Positions 28,538 through 41,294 of a DNA stretch of 42,025 nucleotides are shown here, piece after piece (the first letter of the stretch is position 1; each line of letters starts with the position of its first letter). The translations under genes and the position numbers were made by a program. The notes under the pieces were generated by a model. The model was not told the DNA's origin. It saw only the letters and a program-made list of their open reading frames with translations, and searched no databases. The DNA is from Lachnospiraceae bacterium (GTDB lineage: Bacteria; Bacillota; Clostridia; Lachnospirales; Lachnospiraceae): positions 1-42,025 of the forward strand of contig JAIKXN010000197.1 in NCBI GenBank assembly GCA_024684055.1, given 5' to 3'.

Positions 28538-31321
28538 TTATCTCTCGTCTTTTATGACCCTCCAGTTGTTTTTGTCACGCATGTCTTTTTCGACCGAAAG
28601 CCAGAGCCCCGGAAGGAATTCCGTTCCGTTGTTCTCGTCGACAACCCATTTGTCGGAACCGAGAACGTACTGGGGACCTGCAAACTTTGCATCATTGTTG
28701 ATCGGATTTCCGGTGAACGGGTTCACAGGATTTTCAATCAGCCCTTCAAGCGCATAAGTCGGAACATCCGCGTTGGTCATGAACTCATCGCTTATCGTAA
28801 ATTCCCTCTGATCAAAATCCTTAATGAGAAGGATGGGATAATATGCTTCGATATCCATGAATTCGTCGCTTCCGTCGTCAAGGTGATATTTGTCGTTAAG
28901 ATGAAGTGCTCTTCCGTGGTCGGCCGTGATAATGATACGCGTGTTGTCGTAAACACCTTCTTCCTTAAGATAATCAAGCCATCTTCCGACCGAAAGGATC
29001 GCAGCCATATTGGTCTGATAGAACTGATAACTCTCGACGGAGCCCATATTAAGAGTCACTCCGTCAACGGTATATCTGTCTCTGTTCGCTTCTTCGTAAG
29101 CGGTATTGTCAACGTCATATGCTATCTCGTAGGAAGGTTCCTGGAAAAGCTGGGGATCGTGTGTCGAATCATTTTCAAGAACGAAATAATTGTCGGACGA
29201 ATCATCCTTTACTACGGTCATCGTATTTAGATTCTGAAGCGTTGCATAATCCCACATGAAATTGTCGTAAATGCCCTGCGCAACAAACGAATTGACGATT
29301 CTTTGTCCGTGGCCGCTCGTAATCTCATCGGCAAAATCATTCGTAACCATGTTTTCGTTGTAAAAGCCTTTGTCGTAAAAATGATTCTGCAGAATGATCG
29401 GTGCCGTTTTCATAATCGAGTAGCAGAAAAAGTTTCTGTAATTTCTGTCAGATACGCTGTCCTTGTGAGCGTCCCAGAAATAACCTTTAGTATTGTATGC
29501 CCTGATATCGGGATAATCATCGAATATGGACAGATCCGGATACCACTGATAGTTGGCATAAGGCGCGTCGCAGACGGTTACGTCAAAACCGTTTTCATCG
29601 AAAACCACAGGAAGCATTTTCAGCGCTTCGTTGTGTTTATCCACAAGCAGCCTGTCGTTTCTTTCATTCATTGCCGCGGGCGTGTATTCGTATCCGCCGA
29701 AGATTTCGGGCGAACCAAAATTGGTGTAGGCGCCGTATGAGATTGTATTGGGATAATAAGTGAAGCCTGCGTACATTTCCTTTAATTCGGGTTTTTCGTT
29801 TATAAAATAAGGCATGTACATTCCGGGTGCTTTATCGAGCATGATAACTATGACGTTCCGACCGTTCTTACTTAATGTACAGGTTGGCATCTCATCGCTT
29901 ATTCTTGAAAGTTTTTCCCTGCTTGCCTCCGTAACCTTTATTATCTTTCCGGTATTGAAAACGGATATTCCGGTAATTGCAAGACAAAGAACAACCGCTG
30001 CCCATTTAAGATTGTTCTTTAAAAACCAAAAGAGCAGAAGCAGAACTATCAGTACGATAAACAGTACACCTAAATTCAGCGCTTTTTCTTTCATGGAAAC
30101 CGTAAACTCTTCCGTATATCCGAGGCTGGAATTAAGCACAGCCCTGTTTTTGCCGAATACCATGTAGTTAACCGTCATGATTCCGGCCAAAACCCATGCA
30201 AGACAGTTTAATACCACTCTGAATTTCTCTTCTGCGAGTGCATAGAAAACTCCGAACCAGACAACGAAAGTTCCGAGCGCCATGCAGAACGAACTGACCG
30301 CAAACCAGAGGGGCGATCTGAAATGATAAAGATCGATAAACTCTTCGGTTGACGATGCGATAACCGCAGACGGAATAAGAAGTCCGATAAGTATAGTTAA
30401 ATAAATCCCGCAGGATAAGAACATTGCGTAGCTGCTTTTGAAACCGTATTTTTCAAAGAAAACAAATTCCTTGAATTTCTTCTTTTTCGTTAAAGATATG
30501 ATCAGCGGGCAGAAACTGATCATCGCAAAAAGTGCCACTATGAGCAGAAACGATTTGCTTCCGGTGATCTTAATTCTGATCAAAGGTATGGAGGCGATCA
30601 AAAGAACGCCTGCTGCCGCAAAGAGAACATCAAGCACTTTTCTTGCTTTTTCGGATTTAAAGTATATTGTTTTTCCAAGTGAAAAAAGATTGTTTAAAGT
30701 CCAGTAGAAAACCAGTCCAGAAGGCGATTTATACAGGAAAAAGAGGAAAAATGCCGCCATGCCGTAAAGCTGGATCTTGGTACGAAGCGGATATCCTTTG
30801 GTGAAGATCACGCATGAAATCATATTGATCGCAGTCATCAGTATCGGAAGGATATTTATAGAAATCGCGCCTAAAGATATGAGTGCATCCGGTGTGCCGA
30901 GATCCGCTATCGGTCCGAACGAAACTCCGTTTAAAAGGGTAAGTCCCGATAAAAACCTGTATGCTGCAACAAAGAAAGGAATTTCCAAAAGAAGCGAAAC
31001 GGAACCCTTGAAAACATCGGTCGGTCTGTATCCGTTCTGACGGTAATACGTCTGAAGCATCATCATCTTCTCGTCGCCCTTAAATGTCTTTCTGATGTGT
31101 GCAACGCCTTTTCGAAGTCTGTTCTCAATATCCCTCTCCGCATCCTGAACTTCATCCGCACGTTTGTAAAGCGGAAGAACCAATATGTTCATCGACAGAC
31201 TGAGTGCGATAATGGATAGACCGGGATTAAAAGACCCTTTCTGGGCAACAGAAAAAACGTATTCAAAGAATACCTGCAAAGGACGTATTAAAATTGTGTA
31301 AAGTATCTGAAAAAAGTTCAT
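28538..31321 (-). CDS. YidC/Oxa1-like domain fused to an LTA-synthase/sulfatase-type domain
   Basis: A 927-residue fusion. Residues about 25-225 look like YidC/Oxa1: LSIIALSLSMNILVLPLYKR, a charged cytoplasmic hairpin (DAERDIENRLRKGVAHIRKT, then YYRQNGYRP), SLLLEIPFFVAAYRFLSGLT, and SGLVFYWTLNNLFSLGKTIY. The groove arginine of Gram-positive YidC (in LIRLLILPL) is replaced by Asn45. About five or six further spans lie between 230 and 455. Residues 485-927 form an alkaline-phosphatase-superfamily domain with metal ligand D496 (IVIMLDKAPG), probable catalytic T533 (GAYTNFGSPEIFGG) and D801-H802 (IIITADHGRA). By analogy with LtaS-type enzymes it would act outside the membrane on a phosphoglycerol-type substrate. 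It starts 3 bases after the glycerophosphotransferase gene. Confidence 0.85.
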   Translation of the reverse strand: MNFFQILYTILIRPLQVFFEYVFSVAQKGSFNPGLSIIALSLSMNILVLPLYKRADEVQDAERDIENRLRKGVAHIRKTFKGDEKMMMLQTYYRQNGYRPTDVFKGSVSLLLEIPFFVAAYRFLSGLTLLNGVSFGPIADLGTPDALISLGAISINILPILMTAINMISCVIFTKGYPLRTKIQLYGMAAFFLFFLYKSPSGLVFYWTLNNLFSLGKTIYFKSEKARKVLDVLFAAAGVLLIASIPLIRIKITGSKSFLLIVALFAMISFCPLIISLTKKKKFKEFVFFEKYGFKSSYAMFLSCGIYLTILIGLLIPSAVIASSTEEFIDLYHFRSPLWFAVSSFCMALGTFVVWFGVFYALAEEKFRVVLNCLAWVLAGIMTVNYMVFGKNRAVLNSSLGYTEEFTVSMKEKALNLGVLFIVLIVLLLLFWFLKNNLKWAAVVLCLAITGISVFNTGKIIKVTEASREKLSRISDEMPTCTLSKNGRNVIVIMLDKAPGMYMPYFINEKPELKEMYAGFTYYPNTISYGAYTNFGSPEIFGGYEYTPAAMNERNDRLLVDKHNEALKMLPVVFDENGFDVTVCDAPYANYQWYPDLSIFDDYPDIRAYNTKGYFWDAHKDSVSDRNYRNFFCYSIMKTAPIILQNHFYDKGFYNENMVTNDFADEITSGHGQRIVNSFVAQGIYDNFMWDYATLQNLNTMTVVKDDSSDNYFVLENDSTHDPQLFQEPSYEIAYDVDNTAYEEANRDRYTVDGVTLNMGSVESYQFYQTNMAAILSVGRWLDYLKEEGVYDNTRIIITADHGRALHLNDKYHLDDGSDEFMDIEAYYPILLIKDFDQREFTISDEFMTNADVPTYALEGLIENPVNPFTGNPINNDAKFAGPQYVLGSDKWVVDENNGTEFLPGLWLSVEKDMRDKNNWRVIKDER

Positions 31322-31324
31322 CCT

Positions 31325-32575
31325 TTATTTCTCTTTCCTGTCAGTCAGTTCATCGTATTTTGAAACGAGATAATCAACCGTTTTTACGGCACCCTCGCCG
31401 TAGCACTGCCAGCATTCGTTTCTGACTTCGTTTCTGCCTTCGGCATATTCAGGTCTGCTTAAGCATTCGTCTATTATTTCCTTAACGTTTCCGAGATTCT
31501 CTTCGGTAAGTTTCTCGCCCAGTTTCGGAAGTGCCGTAAGTGTCCAGACCTCATCTTCCATCCACCAGTAATCATAAGGTGCCCTGTCGAAATTTGTTTC
31601 CGTATAAATAATCGGTTTGTCGTAGACGAGTGCGAAATCAAATACCACGGCAGAAAAATCCGAGATAAGAATATCCGCGAGTTTGAGCACTTCGAAATTA
31701 TCGACATCCCTGTTCCATTTTAATTTTTCCGAATCCGGATATCGGGCCATAAGTCTGTCAGTCATTTCTTTTTCGGAAACAAATGACTGCGGATGCGGTC
31801 TGATGATGATGTTGTATCCCGTGGCAATAAGATTGTCGATGACCTTCTCGCCGAATCTGTTCAGAAGCGAACTCGGTCCCCATGAAGGTGCAAGAAGAAC
31901 AGTTCTTTCATGCTCTTTGGTTTCGCCGCTTGATTTTAATCTTTCAACCATTCTGTCCATATAGGGAAGTCCCCCGTAAGGAACTTCCTTTTCGGGAAGG
32001 TTACGGAGTTTCTCAAGTTCGCGAACGTGTTTTATCAGATGTTCGCCCGCTACGAGGATCGAATCATAATAATCGATCCCGAACATTCTGTACAAAGCAA
32101 CTTCGCCTGCAGAATGCGGGATGTGAACATAAAAATCAACGTCTCTTGAGCGTTTCCACTGATATACGTCAAGTCCGGGAGTCGTTGCCAGAACTATATT
32201 GGCATTAAGAAAATTGAGTTTCGAAAAGGTGCGATTGCCCTCTCCGAGGAATTTGCTTTTTACGTGAGGATATTCACATTTAAGCCCTGGATCGTCACCC
32301 GATGCGGTAAGATATTCCACATCTATTCCGCGCCTGTCAAATTCGGCGCAGATCGGTTCAAAAACAGGCCAGTATCTTTTATCGTCGGCAAAAATAACAT
32401 AAGGAATTTTATTTCCCGATATTTCTTCTTTTTTGCCGCTTGTAATCTTAAAGCGTATTTTAACCCAGGCCATCCTTATGAGGTATCCGACTGCACCGAA
32501 TACACCAATAAGAACAGCAAAAAGCATGCTGCCCGTGCCGGGATCTATATAAAGCAGTATATTCTCTGAGTGCAT
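31325..32575 (-). CDS. Membrane-tethered CDP-glycerol glycerophosphotransferase family protein
   Basis: A 416-residue protein. Its N-terminus has YIDPGTGSMLFAVLIGVFGA leading into one membrane span (about 8-36), then a cytoplasmic GT-B type domain of the TagB/TagF family: HIPHSAGEVALYR near 151, LLAPSWGPSSLL near 227, IIIRPHP at 256-262 and ISDFSAVVFDFALVYDKPII from 304. Such enzymes move glycerol-phosphate from CDP-glycerol to a lipid-linked or teichoic-acid acceptor. A GGGAGAGGA site precedes the ATG. It ends 3 bases before the YidC-sulfatase fusion, so the two are translated as a pair. The acceptor cannot be told from sequence. Confidence 0.88.
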   Translation of the reverse strand: MHSENILLYIDPGTGSMLFAVLIGVFGAVGYLIRMAWVKIRFKITSGKKEEISGNKIPYVIFADDKRYWPVFEPICAEFDRRGIDVEYLTASGDDPGLKCEYPHVKSKFLGEGNRTFSKLNFLNANIVLATTPGLDVYQWKRSRDVDFYVHIPHSAGEVALYRMFGIDYYDSILVAGEHLIKHVRELEKLRNLPEKEVPYGGLPYMDRMVERLKSSGETKEHERTVLLAPSWGPSSLLNRFGEKVIDNLIATGYNIIIRPHPQSFVSEKEMTDRLMARYPDSEKLKWNRDVDNFEVLKLADILISDFSAVVFDFALVYDKPIIYTETNFDRAPYDYWWMEDEVWTLTALPKLGEKLTEENLGNVKEIIDECLSRPEYAEGRNEVRNECWQCYGEGAVKTVDYLVSKYDELTDRKEK

Positions 32576-39212: not shown

Positions 39213-41294
39213 CTAAAAAATATTGTTGCCGAATCCTCCGCGGGGCTTGTTAAACTCTTCGGCATATGTTTCTCTCTCCCATGCCGCAAAGTCGTCCGCA
39301 GAGTATCTGTTCACTGTCTTTCCGTTCTTCTTAACAGTTATAGGCTCATTTGAAGCGCCGCTTCTGGGAGGATTTGAAAGATAAAATCCGCCGTTGCCCG
39401 CTCCGAAAGGAGTACTTCCTTCCTTGGTCGTAAATGTCAGATGTGACTCACCTGAAGGTGCAGGCGATGAATATGACTGTCTTGAGGGTTTCTCCGTACC
39501 CTGGCTGACCGTAAATACAGTTCCGCCTGCCGGTGAAGCCGATGCCGTCGATGTCTGGGGCTTGTTGGCAAGTACCGATGAGAACGGATTGGATTCTTCC
39601 GTTCCGCCGATCGTCTTTCCGTAAAGACCGCCTCTGTCAAGAAGCGTTCCGGAACCGTAGTTGCTTTCATAACTTTCTTCGCTGTCCGAACCGCTGTAGT
39701 ATAAACCGTTGTATGCATCGGGAGCCGTAATCGGTCTTGCATATTTGGGTTTGGATTTCTTTGCGCCCGAAAGTGTCTGTCCTACGCCGCCGAACGTTGT
39801 AAGGTCGCTCTTGATGATTGCCGGAGCAGGTTCGGGTTCGGGTTCGGGTTCGGGTGCAGGCGCGGGTGCAGGTGCGGGTGCACCGGCTGCCACGGGCGAA
39901 GGAATCTTACCTTCAACCTCGTCGAAGATAGATCCGGGTTTTGAATTGTAAACAGCTTCCGAGAATGCGGACGCTGCCGTCGCGCTTTCCGTGTATGCCG
40001 AAGAAGCGGATGTATCGTAAGTCTCTGCCGAAGCATATGAAGATGTGTCGGCAGTGCTGTATGAAGTGCTTTCCGTCGAATACGAAGGAGCCGCCGTTGT
40101 GTAAGACGATGTCGTATTTGAGGAAGATGATGCTGTCGTAAATGTTGTCGAAGAGGTTGTCGATGAACCTGTGTATGATGAGGTCGTTGCAGTGCTGTAC
40201 ATAGAAGCAGCCGTTGCAGCCGATGACTGTTCCTCACCGGATGTACTCTTCGCTGTAAATACCGTATGAGACTCTGAAACCTTGGGAGTCGGAGCCACGG
40301 GAACAACAGATGAATTTGAAGGTTTTGAACTTCCTGTCGATCTTGTAAACATGGGAGCTTCACCGTTTGCCTTTCTTTCAAAAGGATCCGGAGGAGCAAT
40401 TTCTTCAAGTGTCTGTTTTGCACCGGGCTTGTTAAATACGATGGTACTTGTAGGTCCTGCTTCTTCCGTGGAACCGACCATCGCAAAGAACAGATAAGCC
40501 GTTCCGACGAGCAGGAAAATAATGCTTAAAAGCCAGAAAGGAATCGGAAGCGGCGAAGCCATGATCGCCATCTTAAGAATTGTTGTAATACCTGTAATGT
40601 ATAACGAAATTCTTACAAGTTCCTTATACGTATAAGGCTGCTTTACGATCTTGTTGATTCCCCAGCCTGCAAGACCGAAAATAAATCCGCTGGCTACAGC
40701 CTTGAGAATAAACACAATCATTGAAACACCGGCAACCACAAGGTAGTAAACCATGAAGTTTCTTTCCATGGAGCCGTTAAATCCTTCTCTGTTAAACATG
40801 CTGGGAAGCCCGAGAGTTTCTGCAACCTGCTTGTTGGAGAATGAGAATTTGAGACCTCTTAATACAGGTCTTACATACATTTCTTTTTTGTTAAATACCA
40901 CAAGCGAATATCCCACACCCCAGTCAGTGTAGATTTCATCCTTGCTTACGCTTGCGGCATCAGACTTATCGATTTCCGAATTAAATACGAAATAAATATT
41001 GAACGGTCCGAGGATAAAGTCCTTTTTCTCAAAATTAATCTCGCCGTCGCTGTATGAAAACTGCGGCATATTTGAAATGGCTCTCTTTGTCTGAGCAATA
41101 AATCCTTCGGGGCCGAGGCATCTTAAATACATAATTCCCCAGAATACAACTGCGGAAATAAGTGCCATAACAAATACATATACGCCGAGTCCGATCGCGG
41201 ACGGATTAGCCATTCGGTTAAAATAACGAGGCTTGACTACACCTTTAAAAGCATTTTTAAACTGACCAAATAAACCTATTCTGTTGCCTTCCAT
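39213..41294 (-). CDS. DUF1189-like membrane protein with long Ser/Thr and Pro/Glu-rich tail
   Basis: A 693-residue protein. Residues 1-275 resemble DUF1189 membrane proteins: basic start with KPRYFNRMANPSAIGLGVYV, a span at 34-57, a soluble domain of about 120 residues (YSDGEINFEKKDFILGPFNI), then spans near 181-205, 226-246 and 251-274. The rest is low complexity: Ser/Thr/Tyr/Ala-rich (about 318-450), a Pro-Ala/Pro-Glu run (472-491), then Gly/Ser/Tyr-rich sequence to NNIF. No sorting signal is visible. The start follows an AAGGGGAC site. The function is unknown; CvfB-like follows in the same operon. Confidence 0.75.
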   Translation of the reverse strand: MEGNRIGLFGQFKNAFKGVVKPRYFNRMANPSAIGLGVYVFVMALISAVVFWGIMYLRCLGPEGFIAQTKRAISNMPQFSYSDGEINFEKKDFILGPFNIYFVFNSEIDKSDAASVSKDEIYTDWGVGYSLVVFNKKEMYVRPVLRGLKFSFSNKQVAETLGLPSMFNREGFNGSMERNFMVYYLVVAGVSMIVFILKAVASGFIFGLAGWGINKIVKQPYTYKELVRISLYITGITTILKMAIMASPLPIPFWLLSIIFLLVGTAYLFFAMVGSTEEAGPTSTIVFNKPGAKQTLEEIAPPDPFERKANGEAPMFTRSTGSSKPSNSSVVPVAPTPKVSESHTVFTAKSTSGEEQSSAATAASMYSTATTSSYTGSSTTSSTTFTTASSSSNTTSSYTTAAPSYSTESTSYSTADTSSYASAETYDTSASSAYTESATAASAFSEAVYNSKPGSIFDEVEGKIPSPVAAGAPAPAPAPAPEPEPEPEPAPAIIKSDLTTFGGVGQTLSGAKKSKPKYARPITAPDAYNGLYYSGSDSEESYESNYGSGTLLDRGGLYGKTIGGTEESNPFSSVLANKPQTSTASASPAGGTVFTVSQGTEKPSRQSYSSPAPSGESHLTFTTKEGSTPFGAGNGGFYLSNPPRSGASNEPITVKKNGKTVNRYSADDFAAWERETYAEEFNKPRGGFGNNIF
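39823..39892 (-). repeat. Hexanucleotide repeat encoding Pro-Glu and Pro-Ala units
   Basis: In the plus-strand reading, GGTTCG units repeat about four times, followed by variants of GGTGCA/GGCGCG. They encode the Pro-Glu and Pro-Ala dipeptides in the tail of the DUF1189-like protein. Such a tract can change copy number in frame. Confidence 0.9.

Follow-up and report, generated by a model that had tools for sequence, protein, structure and literature searches.

A YidC-AlkP fusion and its glycerophosphotransferase-like partner in Lachnospiraceae: a candidate system for surface decoration

The YidC family is established as protein insertases; short N-out anchors are a kind of substrate that YidC handles, and its C-terminus is cytoplasmic. 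Enzymes of the LtaS and MCR type have five helices and a glutamate as first metal ligand. In three-component glycosylation the work is divided between a GtrB-type transferase, a flippase and an outer GT-C transferase. The subject here is a single gene, at 28538-31321 on the (-) strand of a 42,025-nucleotide stretch of Lachnospiraceae bacterium DNA (assembly GCA_024684055.1, contig JAIKXN010000197.1; this whole stretch is called the window below), in which a YidC/Oxa1 domain stands in front of a catalytic domain of the alkaline phosphatase (AlkP) superfamily, together with the PF04464 gene just upstream of it.

Four published reports bear on the components. E. coli YidC, like other insertases, scrambles lipids in vitro (PMC10491306). 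For LtaS-type enzymes it has been suggested that a threonine attacks phosphatidylglycerol, so that diacylglycerol leaves and a glycerophosphate-threonine (GroP-Thr) intermediate remains (PMC4192460), and PptA, of the same superfamily, decorates with choline or ethanolamine phosphate (PMC10434233). PntC makes CMP-AEP, the CMP-activated form of 2-aminoethylphosphonate (AEP), in a pathway whose phosphonyl tailoring steps have been described as ‘enigmatic’ (PMC6697681). Could the parts joined in the window be such steps? The proposal, which we consider about as apt to be right as wrong, is a two-gene, three-activity surface-decorating system in which an activated head group would be put on a lipid carrier, be passed across by the YidC domain and be transferred by the AlkP domain to a surface polymer.

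The fusion gene and its domains

28538..31321, (-) strand: YidC-AlkP fusion gene, 927 residues (open reading frame, Pfam, homolog alignment, dN/dS)
30647..31321, (-) strand: YidC/Oxa1 domain, residues 1-225, Pfam 60KD_IMP at 34-222 (profile, PDB alignment, fold search)
29882..30646, (-) strand: membrane region, residues 226-480, about seven predicted transmembrane helices (AF2 secondary structure, hydropathy)
28541..29881, (-) strand: AlkP-superfamily catalytic domain of sulfatase/LtaS fold, residues 481-927 (Pfam, AF2, Foldseek)

The frame starts with ATG and has no internal stop over its 927 residues. An N-terminal YidC/Oxa1 domain and a C-terminal AlkP-superfamily domain in one protein were what the initial annotation had described, and profile searches bear this out, both families being found above their curated cut-offs: Pfam 60KD_IMP (PF02096) at residues 34-222 (78.8 bits, cut-off 35, E 6e-22) and Pfam Sulfatase at 488-855 (38.0 bits, cut-off 25, E 1.6e-9). 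The NCBIfam model TIGR03592 (yidC_oxa1_cterm) gives 80.8 bits, slightly under its cut-off of 84.3, and in a sequence search of the PDB residues 32-216 align with E. coli YidC (E 2e-5). Structure prediction finds the first ~225 residues YidC-like and the full chain AlkP-like. Modelled by itself with AF2, the YidC domain gets a low-confidence structure (pLDDT 61), whose six Foldseek matches at E <= 0.001 are all YidC (best E 2e-5, probability 1.00; query TM-score of the six 0.55-0.64); the seventh is chain OX of the human membrane-bound mitoribosome (E 7e-3, probability 1.00), which we take to be OXA1L, and the eighth has a probability of 0.16. A long cytoplasmic hairpin is part of the predicted YidC-like portion. 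The AF2 model of the full fusion (pLDDT 74, pTM 0.60) matches MCR-1, PbgA/YejM, LtaS/LtaP, phosphonate monoester hydrolases and sulfatases with E of about 1e-6 to 1e-5, the TM-scores to the target being modest, 0.33-0.54 among the best 50 matches listed.

Might a sequencing error have joined two genes? A scan of 84,980 species genomes, of a kind that detects near relatives only, found 13 loci. In 11 of them the match extends from the YidC portion to the AlkP portion; contig ends truncate L016 and L018, which were left out of alignment A1, and L014, whose frame is broken near the 3′ end, was aligned in the form read but excluded from A2. For the 15 pairs of six close homologs the ratio of nonsynonymous to synonymous substitution (dN/dS) is 0.030-0.054 in the YidC domain, 0.044-0.090 in the membrane region and 0.028-0.074 in the AlkP domain, values that are rough in the latter two parts, where one pair each is undefined and dS exceeds 1 in many. 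Purifying selection thus extends along the whole fusion. With 11 of 13 relatives matching across the join and dN/dS at 0.03-0.09, the fusion is not an error-made join, and that 28538-31321 is a single gene, a genuine YidC-AlkP fusion, is confirmed. Judged by mean column identity, the YidC domain is the best-conserved part, at 84% (A3, 12 rows) vs 68% for the remainder (A2, 13 rows), the two row sets differing slightly.

In 299 Lachnospiraceae genomes, with the best 3 (A2) or best 9 (A3) candidates scored per genome, the fusion-type YidC (A3, E <= 1e-40) occurs in 16 and the C-terminal part (A2, E <= 1e-10) in 15. All matches lie in frames of 801-1087 residues, save pieces on the contig-cut C247, and at these thresholds, which distant relatives could escape, no stand-alone relative of either half was found in the 299. 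In a wider sample of the phylum A2 matches occur in 3 of 398 genomes (G000, G261, G613; best 2 candidates per genome), and no plasmid match to a type-A (YidC-AlkP) or type-B protein (described below) was found at E <= 1e-20. Carriers include Lachnospiraceae metagenome-assembled genomes (MAGs), Lachnospiraceae bacterium G41, Ruminococcaceae bacterium UBA3751 (a MAG) and Schwartzia succinivorans DSM 10502, of a diderm genus.

The fusion is an extra copy, distinct from the housekeeping YidC encoded elsewhere in the genome. PF02096 has three matches in the window's genome, namely the 142-bit housekeeping protein, whose gene is flanked by ribonuclease-P-protein-like and trmE-like genes (names judged by eye), the fusion, and the start of a fusion on the 3.2-kb contig C247. 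In a tree of YidC domains (37 type-A, 6 type-B and 27 canonical rows) the canonical proteins separate from the rest with support 0.953, and type A forms one side with support 0.285, so that one or two origins of types A and B is not settled. The fusion shares with YidC/Oxa1/Alb3 insertases the profile match, the predicted fold of residues 1-225 and the hairpin; unlike them it carries an AlkP domain, is additional to a housekeeping YidC and, in 37 of 37 type-A domains, has Asn or Gln in the groove.

31187..31189, (-) strand: Asn45, aligned with E. coli YidC residue 366, the groove arginine (PDB sequence alignment)

With identical rows merged and matches under 60 bits dropped, this position is Asn in 35 and Gln in 2 of the 37 distinct type-A domains, and Tyr in 13, Arg in 10 and Lys in 4 of 27 canonical YidC. 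The 13 with Tyr (L021, L146, L148, L149, L151-L159) are all of the window's genus; the 14 from the order's other families have Arg or Lys throughout. Since Tyr is present in 13 of 27 canonical proteins, a positive groove residue does not define the family, and the missing arginine was rejected as proof that insertase function is lost, the genus's housekeeping YidC having Tyr there. A separate oddity of the genus is that in six genomes a single frame of 502-517 residues has two separate PF02096 matches (G694:C41, G696:C8, G698:C81, G699:C188, G704:C65, G713:C135), as though a long insert had split a YidC domain.

Between the YidC and catalytic domains AF2 places about seven helices at residues 224-477, with which hydropathy agrees; with an odd number of helices and the YidC C-terminus inside, the AlkP domain would be outside the cell. 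Its candidate active-site residues are as follows.

29834..29836, (-) strand: D496, predicted metal ligand, invariant in A1 and in A6 (which includes four type-B neighbours)
29723..29725, (-) strand: T533, predicted nucleophile, invariant in A1 and A6, with no [CS]xPxR
29159..29161, (-) strand: H721, active-site candidate, invariant in A1 and A6
28916..28921, (-) strand: D801-H802, predicted metal ligands (ADHG motif), invariant in A1 and A6

That D496, T533 and D801-H802 fit the LtaS/sulfatase site had been suggested from the window alone; together with H721, absent from that earlier list, all are invariant in 15 of 15 aligned homologs. The formylglycine motif [CS]xPxR is absent from the fusion sequence and Thr occupies the nucleophile position, which rules out a classical (formylglycine) sulfatase. 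The domain resembles LtaS/LtaP, MCR/EptA/PptA and PbgA in its fold, the Thr at the nucleophile position, the DH pair and a predicted outer location behind a membrane region. Unlike LtaS and MCR it has Asp as first ligand (D496, 15 of 15), about seven helices and YidC in front, and it is linked to nucleotide-activated groups.

The partner gene and the exchange of parts

31325..32575, (-) strand: partner gene, PF04464 (CDP-glycerol glycerophosphotransferase-like), 416 residues (Pfam, alignment)

Only 3 nucleotides lie between the stop of this gene and the start codon of the fusion. Its product matches PF04464 at 43.7 bits (cut-off 22.1), and scores 14.4-17.8 bits with the NCBIfam TarB, TarF and TarL models, whose cut-offs are 500-1000. 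With TagB/TagF/TarL it shares the catalytic family; it differs in being far under those cut-offs, in its AEP/choline neighbourhood in other genera, and in a conserved N-terminal membrane anchor, YIDPGTGSML, invariant in 16 of 16 aligned partners, with about 5 residues ahead of the first hydrophobic stretch. The YIDPGTGS-PF04464 gene is a near-obligate partner of the fusion. In a genome-wide search with a profile built from fusion neighbours (E <= 1e-60) it was found in 15 of the 16 fusion genomes and in none of the 283 others of the 299 (Fisher p 2e-24), so that an early suspicion that the upstream gene belongs with the fusion has been borne out. In the sole fusion genome lacking a match, G215, the fusion runs into a contig end.

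A different arrangement of the same parts surfaced only on searching 41 relatives with the Pfam YidC model, which found further frames of about 640 residues in the window's genus. The six such type-B loci read (L163, L164, L165, L166, L168, L169; L168 is contig-cut and L163 is cut on its upstream side) have a YidC domain followed by a PF04464-like domain with 26-29% identity to the window's partner. For two of the proteins, L164 and L165, Pfam gives 60KD_IMP 98.7 and 99.2 bits, and Glyphos_transf reaches 45.2 bits in L164. Directly upstream, in four of the five loci with that side visible (L164, L165, L166, L169), is an AlkP-type gene whose D, T, H and DHG align with the residues of the fusion. 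With Pfam Sulfatase these four neighbours score 38.9 and 44.5 bits, above the cut-off of 25, and 23.9 and 21.3, slightly under it; BLAST of the four against two YidC queries gave no match at 1e-4, and those of L166 and L169 have longer N-terminal parts. No YIDPGTGS anchor was seen in the type-B sequences read. As judged from domain matches, then, the three parts occur both as anchored PF04464 plus YidC-AlkP and as YidC-PF04464-like plus AlkP, and this swap of partners is the strongest argument for their acting in one process.

Neighbouring genes and the head group

What might the shared process be? By Pfam and NCBIfam, neighbours of the fusion include phosphoenolpyruvate (PEP) mutase with a cytidylyltransferase, phosphonopyruvate decarboxylase, AEP transaminase, LicD, LicC/PntC-like nucleotidyltransferases and fused nucleotidyltransferase-choline kinases. 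Among 32 type-A loci tallied (C247 was left out, as was L067, whose contig equals that of L013 in length), 11 are in the window's ctpA/uvrB setting (the window itself, L007-L012, L016-L019). The 21 in other settings come from 18 genomes, G261 giving two and G004 three, and in 11 of these 21, on stretches of 11.6-20 kb, PEP mutase or a LicC/PntC-like nucleotidyltransferase is encoded. L060 carries, as a same-strand run, the fusion, the partner and a full set of AEP genes (nucleotidyltransferase, AEP transaminase, PEP mutase and phosphonopyruvate decarboxylase). L013 and L059 have phosphonate genes next to the fusion, and the YIDPGTGS gene of L127 is flanked by PEP mutase and AEP transaminase. 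Of the type-B loci, L165 has an AEP operon enclosing its AlkP and YidC-Glyphos genes and L163 an adjoining phosphonopyruvate decarboxylase, the other four being without AEP/choline-type genes.

The association extends to whole genomes. The nucleotidyltransferase (profile A5, E <= 1e-25) is in 13 of the 16 fusion genomes vs 76 of the 283 others, and with the six genomes that seeded A5 left out in 7 of 10 vs 76 of 283 (p 0.007). Either that gene or PEP mutase is in 15 of 16 vs 85 of 283 (p 4e-7), or 8 of 9 vs 85 of 283 (p 6e-4) when seven query-seeding genomes are left out, this either-gene test having been chosen once both single results were seen. The system, then, is found in the same genomes, and in many genera at the same loci, as genes for AEP/choline-type phosphate and nucleotide activation. 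Suggestive only is the overlap in 24 other genomes of the window's genus, where a type-A or type-B frame occurs in 13, PEP mutase in 10, both in 8 and PEP mutase alone in 2; the frames were called by length and score, not all were read, and many of the genomes are incomplete. In the window's organism AEP is the likeliest head group: contig C244 of its genome has PEP mutase (414.3 bits, cut-off 319.6), phosphonopyruvate decarboxylase (464.5, cut-off 312.5), AEP transaminase (456.5, cut-off 360.8) and a nucleotidyltransferase.

The PntC tailoring loci of PMC6697681 are alike in their PEP mutase, AEP transaminase and LicC/PntC-like nucleotidyltransferase genes and in AEP being bound for the surface; they differ in that the paper names LicD-like phosphotransferases and glycosyltransferases as neighbours, and the terms YidC, sulfatase and glycerophosphotransferase are absent from its main text.

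Two loci have variant chemistry beside them. At L059 3984-11047 the genes ahead of the fusion are PEP mutase, an iron alcohol dehydrogenase and one resembling phosphonopyruvate decarboxylase, and that genome may, to go by its genes, use hydroxyethylphosphonate in place of AEP. Just upstream of the module at L056 5268-7073 is a nucleotidyltransferase joined to a domain of CobD-like aminotransferase fold; among NCBIfam models this domain scores highest with threonine-phosphate decarboxylase CobD (183 bits, under the cut-off of 290.6), and the protein possibly supplies ethanolamine- or aminopropanol-phosphate.

The proposed route, its rivals and some further observations

The module and its class of chemistry are well supported, and lipid passage by the YidC fold is the inferred step. 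The cytoplasmic PF04464 enzyme would take the head group, phospho or phosphono in type, from a nucleotide such as CMP-AEP or CDP-choline and load it onto a lipid carrier in the membrane, either diacylglycerol or a polyprenyl lipid. The YidC fold, whose hydrophilic groove is accessible from both lipid and cytoplasm, would pass the head group to the outer leaflet, where T533 of the AlkP domain would attack the lipid ester, giving a covalent intermediate as proposed for LtaS, and the domain would hand the head group to a surface polymer, freeing the lipid. From nucleotide donor through PF04464, lipid and YidC to AlkP, this is the simplest chain given the partner swap and the published data on LtaS, PptA, PntC and YidC scrambling. 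Three-component glycosylation is similar in that a lipid is loaded in the cytosol and flipped and its cargo transferred outside; the fusion system differs in using other protein families, and phospho or phosphono groups instead of sugars. Stated more fully, the idea is that an Oxa1-superfamily domain was recruited, in two alternative three-part gene fusions, as a dedicated crossing step for a lipid-linked phosphonate or phosphate head group, supplying the steps after CMP-AEP, and in that form it is put forward tentatively, as something somewhat short of an even prospect.

Several considerations weigh against this proposal. All the enzyme steps, like the passage, are inferred, and as in vitro scrambling is reported for many insertases in PMC10491306, it does not single out a role for this one. 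The YidC tree leaves a common origin of the type-A and type-B domains unsettled. Glyphos_transf fails E 0.001 in L165, one of the two type-B proteins tested, and the upstream gene of L168 is a different one (364 residues), with no AlkP gene on its 4.5-kb contig. Genome G004 has three fusions, none with a partner in its stretch, both its partners being on other contigs (fusions L064, L065 and L066; partners L127 and L128). In the ctpA-uvrB setting neither a nucleotidyltransferase nor PEP mutase is present in any of the 11 loci (stretches of 5-42 kb), the AEP genes of the window's genome are on another contig than the fusion, and the either-gene test was a choice after the event. PEP mutase (E <= 1e-40) is in only 6 of the 16 fusion genomes, vs 26 of the 283 others, which means that species probably do not all use one head group and, to judge from the 26, that other routes exist; in the window's genus, where many genomes are incomplete, the fusion genomes G698, G701, G705 and G710 are without it. 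LicD, found in two fusion loci, could use such nucleotides directly.

Need the YidC domain handle lipid at all? It could be a built-in insertase or chaperone for the partner's short N-out anchor or for the seven-helix region of the fusion itself, with no lipid-substrate role. Such a function would be the established one for the family, the fold search points to YidC, and the partner, with so few residues before its first hydrophobic stretch, resembles a YidC-type substrate. However, the genome already has its housekeeping YidC, and in type B the domain is fused to the PF04464-like enzyme itself, with the anchor not seen; on balance this is unlikely. Alternatively, the YidC domain might be a scaffold that docks the outer enzyme, or SecY, with the transferase in the cytoplasm, a separate flippase moving the substrate. 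A shared scaffold would likewise show enzyme swapping, and there is a flippase-like gene in one neighbourhood, L060 (judged by eye), but the AlkP part brings helices of its own, and nothing requires a simple scaffold to be the best-conserved portion; this is quite improbable. Most doubtful is a lipoteichoic acid (LTA)-type synthase, with the partner priming from CDP-glycerol and the AlkP domain polymerising phosphoglycerol from phosphatidylglycerol: PF04464 is the TagB/TagF family and the AlkP model matches LtaS/LtaP among others, but TarF, TarL and TarB models give the partner only 14-18 bits, and the ‘LTA synthase’ label of the initial annotation is probably wrong given PEP mutase, AEP transaminase, choline kinase-nucleotidyltransferase and LicD as neighbours in other genera, another Sulfatase-family membrane protein in the genome (851 residues, 87 bits; L022 6154-8709, contig C235) and occurrence in Schwartzia, a diderm genus.

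The accompanying idea of the initial annotation, that YidC serves a lipid-linked substrate, has fared better, being strengthened by the partner swap and by the scrambling reported for E. coli YidC (PMC10491306), though it is unproven. The same annotation knew of no described system of this kind, and among the matches listed from the open full-text literature on YidC fusions or surface phosphonates there is indeed no description of a YidC-AlkP fusion or of the partner swap; domain-architecture databases may list it. For bacterial surface phosphonates, fusion and partner are candidate proteins for export and transfer. If the proposed passage is real, they would be a new route of bacterial surface decoration that fills the steps after CMP-AEP in surface phosphonylation. 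A conserved gene coupling the YidC fold to a putative head-group transferase, and in relatives to the putative loading enzyme of the cytoplasm, would also offer a natural setting for a direct test of whether an insertase fold passes lipid.

Copy number adds a further feature. Contig C247 (L020, 1-3184) has the order fusion end, partner, fusion start, from which the fusion-partner unit is tandemly repeated, and fusion-partner-fusion repeats are likewise present in L008, L009 and L010, the last with three fusions. The six close homologs yield 14 comparable pairs, all 14 of which show a lower dS for the YidC part than for the AlkP part, and this may reflect gene conversion between copies. Several large membrane proteins adjoin L128, the second partner of G004, and at 39213-41294 the window encodes a 693-residue protein with an N-terminal DUF1189 match (59 bits).

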